From: Actinomycetota bacterium
GTDB lineage: Bacteria; Actinomycetota; Acidimicrobiia; Acidimicrobiales; Ilumatobacteraceae
Direction of reading: 5' to 3'
DNA length: 35,545 bases
Assembly (NCBI GenBank): GCA_009726095.1
Contig: WLMZ01000024.1
Coordinates: 1 to 35,545 of the forward strand
In this document: positions 16,136-22,174 of the stretch, one piece after another
How the letters are laid out: each line of letters starts with the position of its first letter
Position numbering within the stretch: the stretch's first letter is position 1
The notes under the pieces: model-generated
Told to the model about the DNA's origin: nothing
The model's database searches: none
Seen by the model: the letters and a program-made list of their open reading frames with translations, nothing else
Made by a program: the position numbers and the translations under genes

Positions 16136-16822
16136 GTGTACTCGCTGTTGTTCGTAGAAGACGATGACTCCATCCGTCTGGCGCTGAGGCTGGCCCTCGA
16201 GGACGAGGGGTACGAGGTGCGCGAGGCGCCCGATGGTCGGTCCGGCCTGGCGGCATTCGCCGAGCGCGAACCCGACCTCGTGCTGCTCGACCTGCGTCTG
16301 CCTGACATCTCGGGCTTCGACGTGTGTCGGGCGATGCGCGCCAAGAGCATCGTGCCGATCATCATCGTCACTGCGCAGACCGATACCCACGACCTCGTGG
16401 TCGGGCTCGAGGCTGGTGCCGACGACTATGTGACCAAGCCGGTGGTGCCCAAGGAACTCGCGGCACGGATCCGGGCCCAGTTGCGGCGCGTGCAGTTGCA
16501 TGAACTGCCCGTGGCCGGCGTGCGCCCGAGCAGGTTCGGCGATGTCGAGGTGCGCCACGAGCAGGGCATCGTGTTGAAAGGTGGGGTGGAGCTGAGCCTC
16601 ACCAAGACCGAGTTCCGACTGATGTGTGAGTTCGCCGAACATGCTGGAGCGGTGCTGTCGCGCGACCAACTGCTCGAGCGCGTCTGGGGCTATGAGTATC
16701 TGGGTGACAGCCGACTGGTCGATGCACACGTGCGCCGACTGCGGTTGAAGATCGAGGATCAGCCCGAGGACCCCAAACTGCTCATCACGGTGCGGGGTCT
16801 GGGGTATCGCCTGCTTGGGTGA
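16136..16822 (+). CDS. OmpR/PhoB-family response regulator, MtrA-like
   Basis: DNA-binding response regulator of 228 residues. The receiver has acidic residues EDDD (8-11), phospho-acceptor Asp52 in LVLLDLRLPD, and the conserved Lys100 in DDYVTKP. The winged-helix output domain shows LSLTKTEFRLMCEFAEHAG, LLERVWGYEYLGDSRLVDAHVRRLRLKIE and VRGLGYRLLG. Start is GTG 16136, giving the standard N-terminus. It is the likely partner of the divergent MtrB-like kinase. Its last 38 bp overlap the end of the opposite-strand helicase gene. Confidence 0.93.
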   Translation: MYSLLFVEDDDSIRLALRLALEDEGYEVREAPDGRSGLAAFAEREPDLVLLDLRLPDISGFDVCRAMRAKSIVPIIIVTAQTDTHDLVVGLEAGADDYVTKPVVPKELAARIRAQLRRVQLHELPVAGVRPSRFGDVEVRHEQGIVLKGGVELSLTKTEFRLMCEFAEHAGAVLSRDQLLERVWGYEYLGDSRLVDAHVRRLRLKIEDQPEDPKLLITVRGLGYRLLG

Positions 16823-18686
16823 TCTCGCGCAGGAACGCCTCTGCCTCGCTGCGGTGGCGGGTGCGTTTCATGGGTGGGAGCGCCTTGATGATGTCCCAGC
16901 GGTAGGCGGCCTTGCCCAGCCGCGGATCCATCACGGCCACGACGCCCCGATCGGTGGCGGTACGGATCAGGCGACCGGTCGCCTGCGCCAACAGCGTCGC
17001 AGCGCGAGGCAGGTCGATCTGGGCAAATGCCTTCGCCCCCAACAGATCGCGGCGCGCCGCCAGTAGCGGATCATTCGGCCGGGGGAACGGCAGGCGGTCG
17101 ATGGTCACCAGCGAGAGCGTGCGCCCCGGAATGTCGACGCCTTGGAAGAACCCGGCCGTGGCGAACAGGCACGAGTTCTCATCGTTGCTGAACGCCTTCA
17201 CCAGCGCAGTCTTGGGGAGATCGCGCTGGGTCATCACGGCGAACGGAATGCGGGCTCGAACCGCTTCAGCGGCAGCGTCCATCGCCTTCCAGCTCGTGAA
17301 CAGTGCCAGCGTGCGGCCACCGGCAGCGCTGATGAGCGCAACCAGTTCGTCGTGAGTGGCGGCAGCGAACTCGGGCGAGCGCGGCTCGGGGAGGTGGATG
17401 GCGCAGTACAGCATCGCGTTGCGTTCGTACTCGAATGGGCTGCCGACATCGGTGGTGTCCACCGCACCGTCGGGCAAGCCGACGCGATCTGCCAACGAGG
17501 CGGGGATGGTGGCGCTCGTGAGCACAGCAGTGTGCTTGTCCCAGACCCCGGTGCGCAGCGTGGGGCCGACGTCGAGTGGGGCAATCTCGAGCCGGGGTGT
17601 GTCCGGGGCACCGGAAACGAACGCAACAGATCCGTCGTGTGTGCCGATCGCGATGTCGATGTGGTCGATCAACCGGCCGGCCTGGGTCTGCGCCCGGAGT
17701 TTGCGTTGTTTGGCGTCTTCGACGTCGGTATCGATGGCACGCAACGCCGACTGCGCGTTGTCGATGCGGGTGCGTCCGTTGACGAGCGCTGCGGTGACCG
17801 CTGTGGGAAGCGGCAGCGGGAGCCGCTGACCGACGTGGGGTACCAGCGACTCGCGCAGGGCAACGCCGGCATCGACGACGGACCCCAGCAGCACGGGGTC
17901 GTCGAGGATGCGCTTCAAGGTGAGCATCAGGCTGGTGAAGCGTCCGCTGCCGATGGAGACGCCGACGGTGTCGCTCATGATGTCTTCCAACGAGTGGGCC
18001 TCGTCGATGATGACCACGTCGTGCTCGGGCAGCAACACGCCTCCGCTGGCAACGTGCAAGCCGTACAGGTGGGTGTTGACCACGATGACATCGGCGTTGG
18101 CGGCCCGTTGGCGCGCTGCTTCGGCGAAGCATGGTTGGCCCATCGGGCACCGAGCCGCGCCCGGGCATTCGTCGCTGCTGACCGAGACCGACTGCCAGGC
18201 CCGGTCGGTGGGAAGCCAGTCCAATTCGGCCATGTCGCCGGTCGCCGTGGTGCCGGCCCATTCGCTGAGGCGCTTCACCTCCACCCTCACGGTTGGCGCG
18301 AGTTCGTCCATCTCCAACTGACCGTTGCCGGCGGCCTGCACCTCGCGGACGCGTTGCAGGCAGATGTAGTTGCTGCGCCCCTTGAGGATTGCCCATTCGA
18401 AAGGGTGGTCCAGGTGCTCGGCCAGGAATGGGAGGTCCTTCGATGCCAGTTGGTCCTGCAGCGCCTTGGTGGCGGTGGCAACAACGATGCGCTTGTCCGC
18501 CAGGACGGCGGGCACGAGGTAGCCCATGGTCTTGCCGGTGCCCGTGCCGGCCTGCACCACCAGATGCCGGCCGGATTGGATCGCGGCGGCGACGGCCTCG
18601 GCCATGTGCCGTTGGCCGGGCCGGTCCTCTGCGGCGGGCAGGGCCGCCGTCACCGAGGCGAGCGCAGAAGCGGTCTTGTTCTTCAT
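16785..18686 (-). CDS. DinG/XPD-family iron-sulfur DNA helicase
   Basis: Superfamily 2 5'-3' DNA helicase of 633 residues. Walker A is QAGTGTGKT (45-53) and the DEAH box is at 228-231 (VVIIDEAHSLED). Four cysteines between them, Cys109, Cys174, Cys180 and Cys186 (SNYICLQ; DECPGAARCPMGQPCF), form the expected 4Fe-4S site. C-terminal motifs are LFTSWKAMD, GFFQGVDIPGRTLSLVTIDRLPFP and QATGRLIRT (motif VI). No exonuclease domain precedes it. It probably unwinds R-loops, D-loops or forked DNA during repair. The ATG at 18686 is 10 bp downstream of the uppS stop on the same strand. Its C-terminal codons overlap the regulator gene on the other strand. Confidence 0.93.
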   Translation of the reverse strand: MKNKTASALASVTAALPAAEDRPGQRHMAEAVAAAIQSGRHLVVQAGTGTGKTMGYLVPAVLADKRIVVATATKALQDQLASKDLPFLAEHLDHPFEWAILKGRSNYICLQRVREVQAAGNGQLEMDELAPTVRVEVKRLSEWAGTTATGDMAELDWLPTDRAWQSVSVSSDECPGAARCPMGQPCFAEAARQRAANADVIVVNTHLYGLHVASGGVLLPEHDVVIIDEAHSLEDIMSDTVGVSIGSGRFTSLMLTLKRILDDPVLLGSVVDAGVALRESLVPHVGQRLPLPLPTAVTAALVNGRTRIDNAQSALRAIDTDVEDAKQRKLRAQTQAGRLIDHIDIAIGTHDGSVAFVSGAPDTPRLEIAPLDVGPTLRTGVWDKHTAVLTSATIPASLADRVGLPDGAVDTTDVGSPFEYERNAMLYCAIHLPEPRSPEFAAATHDELVALISAAGGRTLALFTSWKAMDAAAEAVRARIPFAVMTQRDLPKTALVKAFSNDENSCLFATAGFFQGVDIPGRTLSLVTIDRLPFPRPNDPLLAARRDLLGAKAFAQIDLPRAATLLAQATGRLIRTATDRGVVAVMDPRLGKAAYRWDIIKALPPMKRTRHRSEAEAFLREITQAGDTPDPAP

Positions 18687-18696
18687 GGCGCCACGC

Positions 18697-19401
18697 TCAC
18701 TGCAGCAGTGAGAGGGCGGCGTCGAGTTCGTGCTCGTCGAAATCAGGCCAGGCCTTCTCGGTGAAGTACACCTTGCTGGCGTGGATCTGCCACAGCAGGA
18801 AATTGGAGATGCGCATCTCGCCCGAGGTGCGCACCAGTACGTCGACCGCTGGTAGATCGGGAAGGTAGAGGCGTTGCTGCAGGGTCTCGATGGTGGCTGG
18901 GACGCCATCGGCGATGATCTGCTGGGCAGCTCGCGCCAACTCGGCGCGGCTGCCGTAGTCGAACGCGATCGTCAGTGTCATTCCGGTGTTCGCTGCGGTG
19001 TCGGCGATGGCTTTGCGGATGGCCCGTTGTACGTATTTCGGGGTGCGCGCATCGGGTGAGCCGAACGGCCTGCCGATCCACTGGATGCGAACATTGAGTT
19101 CGTTGAGTTCGGCCACGCGCCCGAAGAGCTTCTCGTGCAGTCCCAGAATGTGACGCACCTCGGTGCGGGGGCGCACCCAGTTCTCGGTGCTGAAGCCGAA
19201 CGCTGTGAGCCAGCCGACATTGCGTTGCACCGCAGCGCGTACCACGCTGGCGAGGTTCTCTTCGCCCTCGGTGTGGCCAGCCGTACGGGGCAGGCCCCGG
19301 GCCTTTGCCCACCGGCCGTTGCCGTCCATGATGCACGCCACATGCGGGCCATCGTGGCTGGCTCGGGACGCGGAGTTGGACGGGGTGGGGGTGGGGCTCA
19401 C
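18697..19401 (-). CDS. uppS: undecaprenyl diphosphate synthase, catalytic type, lacking the C-terminal R-x-G tail
   Basis: cis-Prenyltransferase that extends farnesyl diphosphate with isopentenyl units to the C55 carrier for peptidoglycan (234 residues). Motif I is intact at 24-31 (IMDGNGRW, catalytic Asp26), followed by RTAGHTEG, FGFSTENWVRP and the diphosphate-binding RTSGEMRISNFLLWQ (Arg191, Arg197, Ser199). The protein ends at WPDFDEHELDAALSLLQ. E. coli-type homodimeric enzymes continue about a dozen residues further to RRFGG, a tail that reaches the partner active site. That tail is absent here, and no stop-codon readthrough frame restores it. The start is GTG 19401. The gene is followed by dinG on the same strand and is divergent from a UppS-like paralogue that does carry the tail. 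Confidence 0.93.
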   Translation of the reverse strand: MSPTPTPSNSASRASHDGPHVACIMDGNGRWAKARGLPRTAGHTEGEENLASVVRAAVQRNVGWLTAFGFSTENWVRPRTEVRHILGLHEKLFGRVAELNELNVRIQWIGRPFGSPDARTPKYVQRAIRKAIADTAANTGMTLTIAFDYGSRAELARAAQQIIADGVPATIETLQQRLYLPDLPAVDVLVRTSGEMRISNFLLWQIHASKVYFTEKAWPDFDEHELDAALSLLQ

Positions 19402-19501
19402 GACACTGTCACGTTAGCGATCGCGACGCTGTCATGGCGGTGCAGTCGGGCCGTTGCGGCCATGCGGTTCGCTCGGGTGCCCGCCGTGCGAGAATCGGAC
19501 C
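19402..19501. promoter_or_regulatory. shared control region of uppS and its paralogue
   Basis: 100 bp between two divergent starts. It contains the perfect palindrome gcgatcgc at 19417-19424, flanked by cgt and acg to give an imperfect longer dyad (19412-19428). The shared position could allow joint regulation of both genes. No clear promoter elements are assignable. Confidence 0.35.
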
Positions 19502-20071
19502 GTGGCGAGGAAGCGAACACAACCAGTGACGGCGGGCGCAGCGGGACCCGCCGCGCTCCGGCATGTCCTGGTGGTCGCCGGCACTCTGGCCGAATGGGAT
19601 GCCCTCGGCGAGCAGCGTTGGGCCGAGCGTCGGCGTGATCTCGCCCGTGTTGCCGCCGCCGCTGGCGCGATGTGGCTCACCGTTCGTCCGTACGAACGCG
19701 GTGCCGTCAGCGCTGAGCCGGCCACGCAACGCATGATCGCGCTCCACGATGGCTGCACGATCGTGGTGGATCCCTCGCCCGACGGACGCGAACGGTTCCT
19801 TGCTGCCGTCGAACAGCTTCGTGATGCCTCGGTCACCGTGGTCGATGAATCCGCGATCACCGGCGTGCTGATGGCCCCGGCCCCTGTGGAACCCGACCTC
19901 ACGGTGATCCTCGGTCCATCCACCCAACTCCCGCCATCGCTGGTCTGGGAGCTGTCGTACAGTGAGATCGTGTTCGTCGACGCAGCGTGGGACGACTTGG
20001 CCGGTGCACACGTCGAGGCCGCGATCACCGCGTATTCGCAGCGTCACCGCCGGTTCGGTGCCATCGAATGA
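19502..20071 (+). CDS. degenerate UppS-fold protein, possible non-catalytic cis-prenyltransferase subunit
   Basis: 189 residues from a GTG start. The N-terminal strand HVLVVAGTLAEWDALG lies where UppS has HVACIMDGNGRWAKARG, so the catalytic Asp and the Asn-Gly-Arg-Trp are gone. WLTVRPYERG corresponds to the WLTAFGFSTENW region. The C-terminal part aligns well by eye: VILGPSTQLPPSLVWELSYSEIVFVDAAWDDL against VLVRTSGEMRISNFLLWQ...WPDF, again with both diphosphate-binding Arg lost. It ends ITAYSQRHRRFGAIE, matching the RRFG tail of homodimeric UppS that the neighbouring uppS product lacks. Its stop overlaps the recO start (ATGA). Role is inferred: an NgBR/Nus1-like partner of UppS. The alternative is a decayed paralogue kept for recO translation. 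Confidence 0.75.
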   Translation: MARKRTQPVTAGAAGPAALRHVLVVAGTLAEWDALGEQRWAERRRDLARVAAAAGAMWLTVRPYERGAVSAEPATQRMIALHDGCTIVVDPSPDGRERFLAAVEQLRDASVTVVDESAITGVLMAPAPVEPDLTVILGPSTQLPPSLVWELSYSEIVFVDAAWDDLAGAHVEAAITAYSQRHRRFGAIE

Positions 20072-20787
20072 GCCGGCTCTACCGGGACACGGGCGTGGTG
20101 TTGCGCACCTACAAACTGGCCGAGTCAGACCGCATCATCGTGCTGCTCACCGAGGGGCACGGCAAGGTGCGGGCGGTGGCCAAGGGTGTCCGCAAGACGG
20201 GCTCGAAGTTCGGCGGTCGTCTCGAGCCGATGAGCCACGTCCGTCTGCTGTTGCACCAGGGGCGCGAGCTCGACATCGTCAATCAGGTCGACACGGTGGA
20301 ATCCCTCGCGCCGTTGATGGTCGACCTCGACCACATGACCAAGGGTATGGCCGTACTCGAGGCGGTCGATCAGATGGCGATGGACCGCGAGGCAAACCCG
20401 CGGCTCTACCGCATGCTCGTGGGTGTGCTGCGCACCATCGCCACCAATGATTCGCCGCTGGTGGTGCCTGGATTCTTCTGGAAGCTGCTGGCGCTCGAGG
20501 GCGTGCGCCCCGAACTCGATGTGTGTGTGCAATGCGGTGCACCCGAGCCGTTGGTGGCCTTCGACATGGACCATGGCGGAGTGCTGTGCCGCACCTGCCG
20601 CTCGGGGGCGCCCATCAGTGCTGACGCGCTGCAGCTGATGCGGATGATCCTTGGTGGACAGCTGAATGCTGCGCTGGCCGAACCGGTGTCTCAAGCTGCC
20701 CACGAGGTCAACTCCCATGCCACCAGAGCTGTCGAGCACCACATCGAGCGTCGGCTCCGATCAGTGGCAGTGTTCGAGCGCCACTGA
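20068..20787 (+). CDS. recO: DNA repair protein RecO
   Basis: Recombination mediator that loads RecA with RecR (239 residues). The N-terminal OB fold reads YRDTGVVLRTYKLAESDRIIVLLTEGHGKVRAVAKGVRK. The helical domain follows and includes a Cys4 zinc site at Cys153, Cys156, Cys174 and Cys177 (CVQCGAPEP, GGVLCRTC). Its ATG overlaps the preceding stop as ATGA, so it is translationally coupled to the UppS-like gene. RecO near era and uppS is a common bacterial arrangement. glyS follows 76 bp later on the same strand. Confidence 0.95.
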   Translation: MSRLYRDTGVVLRTYKLAESDRIIVLLTEGHGKVRAVAKGVRKTGSKFGGRLEPMSHVRLLLHQGRELDIVNQVDTVESLAPLMVDLDHMTKGMAVLEAVDQMAMDREANPRLYRMLVGVLRTIATNDSPLVVPGFFWKLLALEGVRPELDVCVQCGAPEPLVAFDMDHGGVLCRTCRSGAPISADALQLMRMILGGQLNAALAEPVSQAAHEVNSHATRAVEHHIERRLRSVAVFERH

Positions 20788-20863: not shown

Positions 20864-22174
20864 ATGCCAGCCACCGAGCTCGAACAAATCGTCAACCTGT
20901 GCAAGCGGCGCGGCTTCGTGTATCCCTCCGCCGAAATCTACGGCGGCTTTCGTTCGAGCTACGACTACGGCCCGCTCGGCTCGCTCATGCTGCGCAACGT
21001 GAAGGACGCATGGGTGCGTTCGATGGTGCAGCAGCGTGACGATGTCGTGTTGATCGATGCTTCGGTGCTGTCGCCGCCGCAGGTTTGGGAGGCCAGCGGC
21101 CACCTTGCCAACTTCACCGATCCGCTGGTGGATTGCACCAAGTGCAAGCAGCGTTTCCGCGAGGACCACCTCGTCGACCCCAACGTGTGCCCCAACTGCG
21201 CAGCCACGAACTCCTTCACCGAGGCCCGGGCCTTCAACCTCATGTTCAAGACCCAGGCCGGCCCGGTCGAGGGAGCTGGCGCCGATGTGTACCTGCGCCC
21301 AGAGACCGCCCAGGGCATGTTCTTGAACTTTGCCAACGTGTTGCAGACCAGCCGCAAGAAGCCCCCGTTTGGTATCGCCCAGGTCGGCAAGAGCTTCCGC
21401 AACGAGATCACACCCGGCAACTTCATCTTCCGCACGCGTGAGTTCGAGCAGATGGAGATGGAGTTCTTCGTGCCCCCGGCCGATGGGCCGAAGTGGTACG
21501 AGTACTGGTGCACCGAGCGCCTCAACTGGTACCGCGACCTCGGCATCCCGGCAGACCTGTTGCGCATGCGCGCCCACGACGACGACGAACTCAGCCACTA
21601 TTCCACCGGCACCAGCGATATCGAGTTCAAGTTCCCGTGGGGCTGGGGCGAGCTCGAAGGCGTGGCGCAGCGCACCGACTACGACCTCAAACAGCATGCC
21701 CAGCACAGCGGCCAGAAGCTCGATTACTTCGATCAGGCCACCAACGAGCGGTACGTTCCCTTTGTCATCGAGCCCGCAGCAGGGGCAACACGAACCATGG
21801 CAGCGTTCCTGCTCGCCGCGTACGACGAGGACGAGGTCGGTGGCGAGGCGCGCACCATCTTGCGCCTGCACCCGCGCCTGGCGCCGTACAAGGTTGCCGT
21901 GCTGCCGCTGTCGAAGAAGGACACCCTCACGCCGCTCGCCCGTCAGGTCTTCCAGACCCTCAGCGCGCAGTACATGGTGGAGTACGACGACACGCAGTCC
22001 ATCGGCAGGCGCTATCGCCGTCAGGACGAGGTCGGTACGCCGTTGTGCGTCACGGTCGACTTCGATTCGCTCGACGATGCCGCGGTCACCATCCGCGATC
22101 GCGACACCACCGATCAGGTGCGTGTGCCGATCAGCGCCCTGCTCGGCGAGATCAGCGCCCGTCTGGGTTTCTGA
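20864..22174 (+). CDS. glyS: glycine-tRNA ligase, homodimeric (eukaryote/archaea-like) type
   Basis: Class II aminoacyl-tRNA synthetase of 436 residues. The N-terminus has CKRRGFVYPSAEIYGGF and SSYDYGPLG. A Cys4 zinc site lies at Cys91, Cys94, Cys109 and Cys112. Motif 2 covers LRPETAQGMFLNF and GKSFRNEITPGNFIFRTREFEQ split over two strands, and motif 3 is in RTMAAFLLAAYDEDE. The anticodon-binding domain occupies the last third (YKVAVLPLSKKDTLTPLA...QSIGRRYRRQDEVGTPLCV). The alpha2 type is usual in actinobacteria, in contrast to the glyQ/glyS tetramer of proteobacteria. Start ATG 20864 is favoured over 20828, which would add 12 residues. It converges on a sensor kinase gene 11 bp away. Confidence 0.96.
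   Translation: MPATELEQIVNLCKRRGFVYPSAEIYGGFRSSYDYGPLGSLMLRNVKDAWVRSMVQQRDDVVLIDASVLSPPQVWEASGHLANFTDPLVDCTKCKQRFREDHLVDPNVCPNCAATNSFTEARAFNLMFKTQAGPVEGAGADVYLRPETAQGMFLNFANVLQTSRKKPPFGIAQVGKSFRNEITPGNFIFRTREFEQMEMEFFVPPADGPKWYEYWCTERLNWYRDLGIPADLLRMRAHDDDELSHYSTGTSDIEFKFPWGWGELEGVAQRTDYDLKQHAQHSGQKLDYFDQATNERYVPFVIEPAAGATRTMAAFLLAAYDEDEVGGEARTILRLHPRLAPYKVAVLPLSKKDTLTPLARQVFQTLSAQYMVEYDDTQSIGRRYRRQDEVGTPLCVTVDFDSLDDAAVTIRDRDTTDQVRVPISALLGEISARLGF

Follow-up and report, generated by a model that had tools for sequence, protein, structure and literature searches.

Gene Arrangement at the recO Locus

We analyzed a 35,545-nucleotide stretch of DNA (the window) from an Actinomycetota genome bin of the family Ilumatobacteraceae. 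Two genes related to undecaprenyl diphosphate synthase (UppS), here called cat and psd, lie on opposite strands 100 bp apart, flanked by conserved neighbors (Table 1). The psd frame begins with GTG and runs unbroken through 189 codons, and its TGA stop shares the letters ATGA at 20068-20071 with the ATG of recO, as the initial annotation had stated. The initial annotation also read translational coupling to recO into this arrangement. Such an overlap is not universal (ATGA or GTGA in 52 of 80 relatives), and the position next to recO is not distinctive. The linkage to recO is inherited, because complete uppS genes lie upstream of recO in other Acidimicrobiales families. No sigma-70-like promoter match was found in the region between cat and psd.

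Table 1. Features of the cat-psd locus in the window.
Feature	Position	Strand	Evidence or remark
dinG-like helicase gene	16785..18686	-	conserved neighbor directly downstream of cat; name from translation by inspection
cat (catalytic UppS, 234 aa)	18697..19401	-	PF01255, residue alignment; without C-terminal RxG tail, ends ...ELDAALSLLQ*
cat-psd divergent intergenic region, 100 bp	19402..19501	.	possible shared promoter region
psd (proposed accessory subunit, non-catalytic cis-prenyltransferase fold, 189 aa)	19502..20071	+	ORF, PF01255, profiles, predicted fold
Gly27 of psd	19580..19582	+	at E. coli Asp26 position; Gly in 88/88 homologues
WELSYSE segment of psd	19946..19966	+	Tyr153 and Glu155 (E. 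coli Tyr211, Glu213) invariant; other residues in most Cat proteins
RxG motif of psd (Arg184-Phe185-Gly186)	20051..20059	+	invariant in relatives; missing from Cat
recO	20068..20787	+	overlaps psd stop codon (ATGA)
glycyl-tRNA synthetase gene (glyS)	20864..22174	+	conserved neighbor; name from translation by inspection

Both proteins pass the curated cut-off of PF01255 (Prenyltransf; 27 bits). Cat scores 218.2 bits and carries the complete catalytic motif set; its match stops at profile position 209 of 219, the chain being cut short ahead of the RxG tail. Psd scores 43.1 bits, its residues 94-186 aligning with profile positions 124-219. The genome bin, which is 87.8% complete, contains no further PF01255 gene, and neither of the two combines catalytic residues and RxG on one chain as a homodimeric UppS does. 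The bin contains mraY, and an undecaprenyl or polyprenyl carrier is therefore expected to be needed; the bin offers no candidate source for it other than cat and psd. This genome has two mraY-like genes that exceed the family cut-off (G000:C112:27080-28021 and G000:C166:216-1103), which could mean a true second copy or bin heterogeneity.

Psd Retains the Cis-Prenyltransferase Fold

The initial annotation had described Psd as a degenerate homologue of UppS that keeps the fold, and sequence profiles and predicted structure bear this out. In addition to the PF01255 match, a psd-family profile built from 23 relatives matched solved UppS structures over nearly its whole length (E ~2e-20) and NUS1 chains weakly (E ~3e-5). 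The profile-profile comparison proposed as a check, run with hhalign against full-length UppS from the same order, returned a probability of 99.7%. The single-chain AlphaFold2 model (pLDDT 89.2, pTM 0.83) matched UppS structures in Foldseek (prob 1.00), and VIA-align gave Z ~12 with an rmsd of ~4 over ~160 residues. The 50 VIA-align matches listed were UppS-type enzymes only, with no NUS1, a result that is uninformative either way.

Between strand 58-62 and helix 95-108, the Psd model contains two strands only (78-82 and 85-89), at a place where the catalytic relative has helices 79-93 and 96-101. This part would correspond to the substrate tunnel region. By inspection, no hydrophobic segment was found in the ~19 residues ahead of the Psd domain; Psd therefore does not have the membrane-anchoring N-terminal segment by which an NgBR/NUS1 orthologue would be recognized.

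Reciprocal Partition of Conserved Residues

We aligned 88 distinct Cat and 88 distinct Psd sequences with complete UppS proteins from 17 other genomes. Positions are numbered by the E. coli UppS sequence, in which Asp26 is the essential Mg-binding Asp. Cat proteins keep D26, N28, R30, R77, R194, E198, R200 and S202 at 97-100%, gaps being due to contig ends, and have no R239-G245. The loss of catalytic residues initially proposed for Psd extends to all 88 distinct homologues, with D26 replaced by Gly in 100% and S202 by Pro in 98%; Y211, E213, R239, R241, R242, F243 and G244 are kept in 100%. The complete UppS proteins of the 17 other genomes keep both the catalytic and the interface/tail set.

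The entire partition is present in 82 of 84 cat-psd pairs, and the remaining two are cut by contig ends. The corresponding local segments read WQIHASKVYF in Cat and WELSYSEIVF...RRFG in Psd, and the conserved residues of Psd cluster in the interface segment and the tail. At the Glu213 position, Psd always has Glu and Cat mostly Ala or Lys; Glu is still present there in 12 of 88 Cat proteins, which counts against the heteromeric reading set out below. A search for a fossil RxG tail 3' of the cat stop codon in 75 loci yielded nothing convincing, only four chance-like matches.

Distribution of the Pair and Inheritance of the Locus

A first survey covered 25 Ilumatobacteraceae genomes, including the one studied here: 23 carried the pair, one (G019) had a single complete gene, and one incomplete bin gave no match. 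The same pattern was found in 200 sampled genomes of the family; among the matches listed, only G019, G046, G078 and G127 had a complete gene. Family identity was taken from named records, including the cultured Ilumatobacter nonamiensis. About 50 sister families of the order have one complete UppS each (profile positions 1-219); in 123 genomes from these families, UppS was complete, the exceptions being a fragment at a contig edge and a single genome with no match. No other complementary split was seen in ~100 Actinomycetota genomes, and the cat/psd split is seen only in Ilumatobacteraceae. In G023, cat and psd are on different contigs (L042 and L127), both in their complementary state; the two genes are likely truly unlinked there, on contigs that are short.

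G127 belongs to a genus that otherwise has the split pair. Its complete UppS (G127:C4:86498-87157) comes from a bin without a recO or glyS match, and contamination or misassignment is possible.

Among the complete-UppS loci examined, recO adjoins uppS in 16 of 17, and dinG is divergent in several. In Ilumatobacteraceae, psd stands at this place of uppS, and cat lies between psd and dinG on the dinG strand. The place held by psd is the ancestral uppS-recO-glyS locus, at which G019 has an undivided uppS.

A Proposed Heteromeric Cis-Prenyltransferase

With the tail on Psd only and the chemistry on Cat only, a Cat-Psd heteromer would restore a complete active site. On the basis of sequence, predicted structure and comparative genomics, we consider it very likely that Cat and Psd form an obligate heteromeric cis-prenyltransferase, in which Psd would give the RxG tail in trans. 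The initial annotation had taken the retained fold as a sign of selection for binding. Purifying selection agrees with this, but the reading was incomplete, having overlooked the adjacent cat without a tail: as Cat lacks exactly the C-terminal element that Psd keeps, "binding" becomes the specific prediction of a non-catalytic heteromer subunit.

In the proposed mechanism, the ancestor would have been an ordinary homodimer with both functions on each chain; a second uppS copy would then have appeared beside the recO-linked copy, and the functions would have been divided between the two. Cat would bind FPP, IPP and Mg and perform the condensation. Psd would complete the dimer and thread its RRFG(G) C terminus into the Cat active site, as NgBR does with DHDDS, and the product would be a polyprenyl diphosphate carrier for cell-wall synthesis. 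The analysis shows the presence, conservation, reciprocal losses, fold and locus history of the pair, and purifying selection; from these we infer the association of Cat with Psd, the insertion of the tail in trans, the dependence on two chains and the length of the product. Glu213 may also act in trans.

Bacterial cis-prenyltransferases have been described as homodimers (PMC7839719), and heteromers as typical for eukaryotes and for the synthesis of long-chain products (PMC7839719, PMC7573591). The C-terminal RxG segment of human NgBR reaches across the dimer interface and contributes to the substrate sites of DHDDS; comparable transverse interactions, in which the tail enters the active site of the partner chain, have been reported in homodimeric enzymes (PMC7573591). 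Structures of homodimers show a water-mediated contact of the RxG Arg with Mg and a contact between the Gly backbone and the acceptor phosphate (PMC8131916). The fold of homodimeric UppS (E. coli, M. luteus, B. subtilis) is common to Cat and Psd and its active-site residues are shared by Cat, but no single chain here has the full residue set.

DHDDS/NgBR, yeast Rer2/Nus1 and plant CPT/CBP show the same division: a catalytic subunit with active-site residues and without RxG, like Cat, and a non-catalytic subunit keeping the fold and the C-terminal RxG, like Psd, although Asn replaces the RxG Arg in yeast Nus1. In the human pair, DHDDS has no RxG and has Cys at the Glu213 position; NgBR, like Psd, keeps the equivalent Glu, and it ends in RLGK. 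The segments WQTSHSCLVF of DHDDS and LTEIV of NgBR match PDB chains exactly. In contrast to DHDDS/NgBR, Psd has no hydrophobic N-terminal anchor and Cat no C-terminal helix-turn-helix; the pair is bacterial, confined to one family and located at the ancestral bacterial uppS locus, and its product is presumably a cell-wall carrier, not dolichol. MM_0618/MM_1083 of Methanosarcina mazei is, as cited in PMC8131916, an archaeal heteromeric enzyme. By that description, it resembles the proposed bacterial pair in being a prokaryotic heteromeric cis-prenyltransferase for a glycosyl carrier lipid (PMC8131916), and differs from it in being archaeal.

If the heteromeric reading is true, a split enzyme together with a relative that keeps the ancestral form intact would allow direct tests of the course and causes of the change from homodimer to obligate heteromer, of whether heteromery itself alters chain length, and of which residues act in trans. 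The pair would also offer candidates free of a membrane anchor in which to study how the human RxG disease mutation acts. For annotation, it would correct a case in which an enzyme is expected to be essential but its second subunit may be listed as a hypothetical protein or taken for a spurious duplicate.

Selection on psd and Alternative Explanations

The dN/dS analysis across relatives that had been suggested for psd gave NG86 values of 0.05-0.22 (10 pairs computable). An intact, motif-bearing frame is present in 79 of 80 loci, and 19 residues are invariant across 58 sequences. This indicates that psd is under purifying selection for something other than its own chemistry. The same values and residue conservation, together with the high-confidence predicted fold, largely refute the idea that psd is a pseudogene in decay, left at the former uppS locus and open only via recO coupling, an idea we rejected as having next to no likelihood even though psd evolves fast, its frame is broken in one relative, and the recO overlap could favor an open frame. 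The overlap is equally the ground for regarding Psd as a partner or regulator of RecO or of DNA repair. We find this scarcely credible: the linkage is older than the loss of chemistry, complete uppS genes preceding recO in sister families, and a role with RecO would leave unexplained why Psd has kept RxG while Cat has lost it.

A further explanation is that Cat is a self-sufficient homodimer without RxG, with Psd as an optional modulator or in an unrelated lipid- or protein-binding role. Its precedent is Methanosarcina MM_0014, which has no RxG, is homodimeric and is active in vitro (PMC8131916), so loss of the tail alone is no proof of dependence on a second chain. This explanation is nevertheless improbable given the exact reciprocal partition in the 82 pairs, the centering of Psd conservation on the interface segment and tail, and the retention of psd in G023 with cat on another contig. 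Against the preferred reading of an obligate Cat-Psd heteromer stands the rate of psd, which evolves ~3x faster than cat (mean distance 1.05 vs 0.37). In its favor, the distances of the two genes are correlated in a way that the species signal does not account for (partial Mantel r 0.26, p 0.001); shared local rate effects could contribute to this correlation.

The sole broken psd frame among the 80 relatives (L084:650-1255) lies on a short metagenome contig, and sequencing error is possible.

Origin of the Split

In a recO+glyS tree, all pair-bearing genomes form one group with moderate support (90/54), and G019 and genus g39 are sister to all of them. The split probably arose once. Its restriction to one family and its position at the ancestral bacterial uppS locus point to an origin in bacteria apparently separate from that of DHDDS/NgBR. 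We think it likely that the pair represents a bacterial heteromeric polyprenyl/undecaprenyl diphosphate synthase, independent of the eukaryotic and archaeal ones, that arose as two UppS copies underwent complementary losses and that serves as the sole cis-prenyltransferase of nearly all Ilumatobacteraceae, one sister lineage in the sample having kept the undivided ancestral state. Searches of the openly licensed literature yielded no report of a bacterial heteromeric cis-prenyltransferase, which does not in itself prove novelty.

In the gene tree, psd groups with the complete UppS of Acidimicrobiales and cat falls outside (100/97); a single clade of cat and psd was not rejected (AU p 0.156). 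No close donor for cat was found in the phylum sample. From these sequence comparisons, cat may be either a duplicate or a foreign copy.

Genus g39 (G046, G064, G078; L146, L147, L148) has no uppS at the recO locus, where dinG abuts recO. G046 and G078 have a different complete UppS elsewhere, with the tail RRRRKG or RRRRMG, which suggests a replacement. A quick tree had put g39 inside the pair-bearing genomes, unlike the careful species tree, which places it with G019 outside them; co-loss of cat and psd was accordingly rejected for this genus, and loss of the single ancestral uppS is the simpler reading.

Elsewhere in the phylum, G398, G413 and G420 have a complete UppS and a second, divergent homologue covering profile positions 78-219 only, in which the catalytic Asp region may be missing. 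In G402 and G417, UppS is matched in two pieces (1-103 and 89-219) on adjacent stretches of one open frame, which suggests an insertion or an internal repeat.
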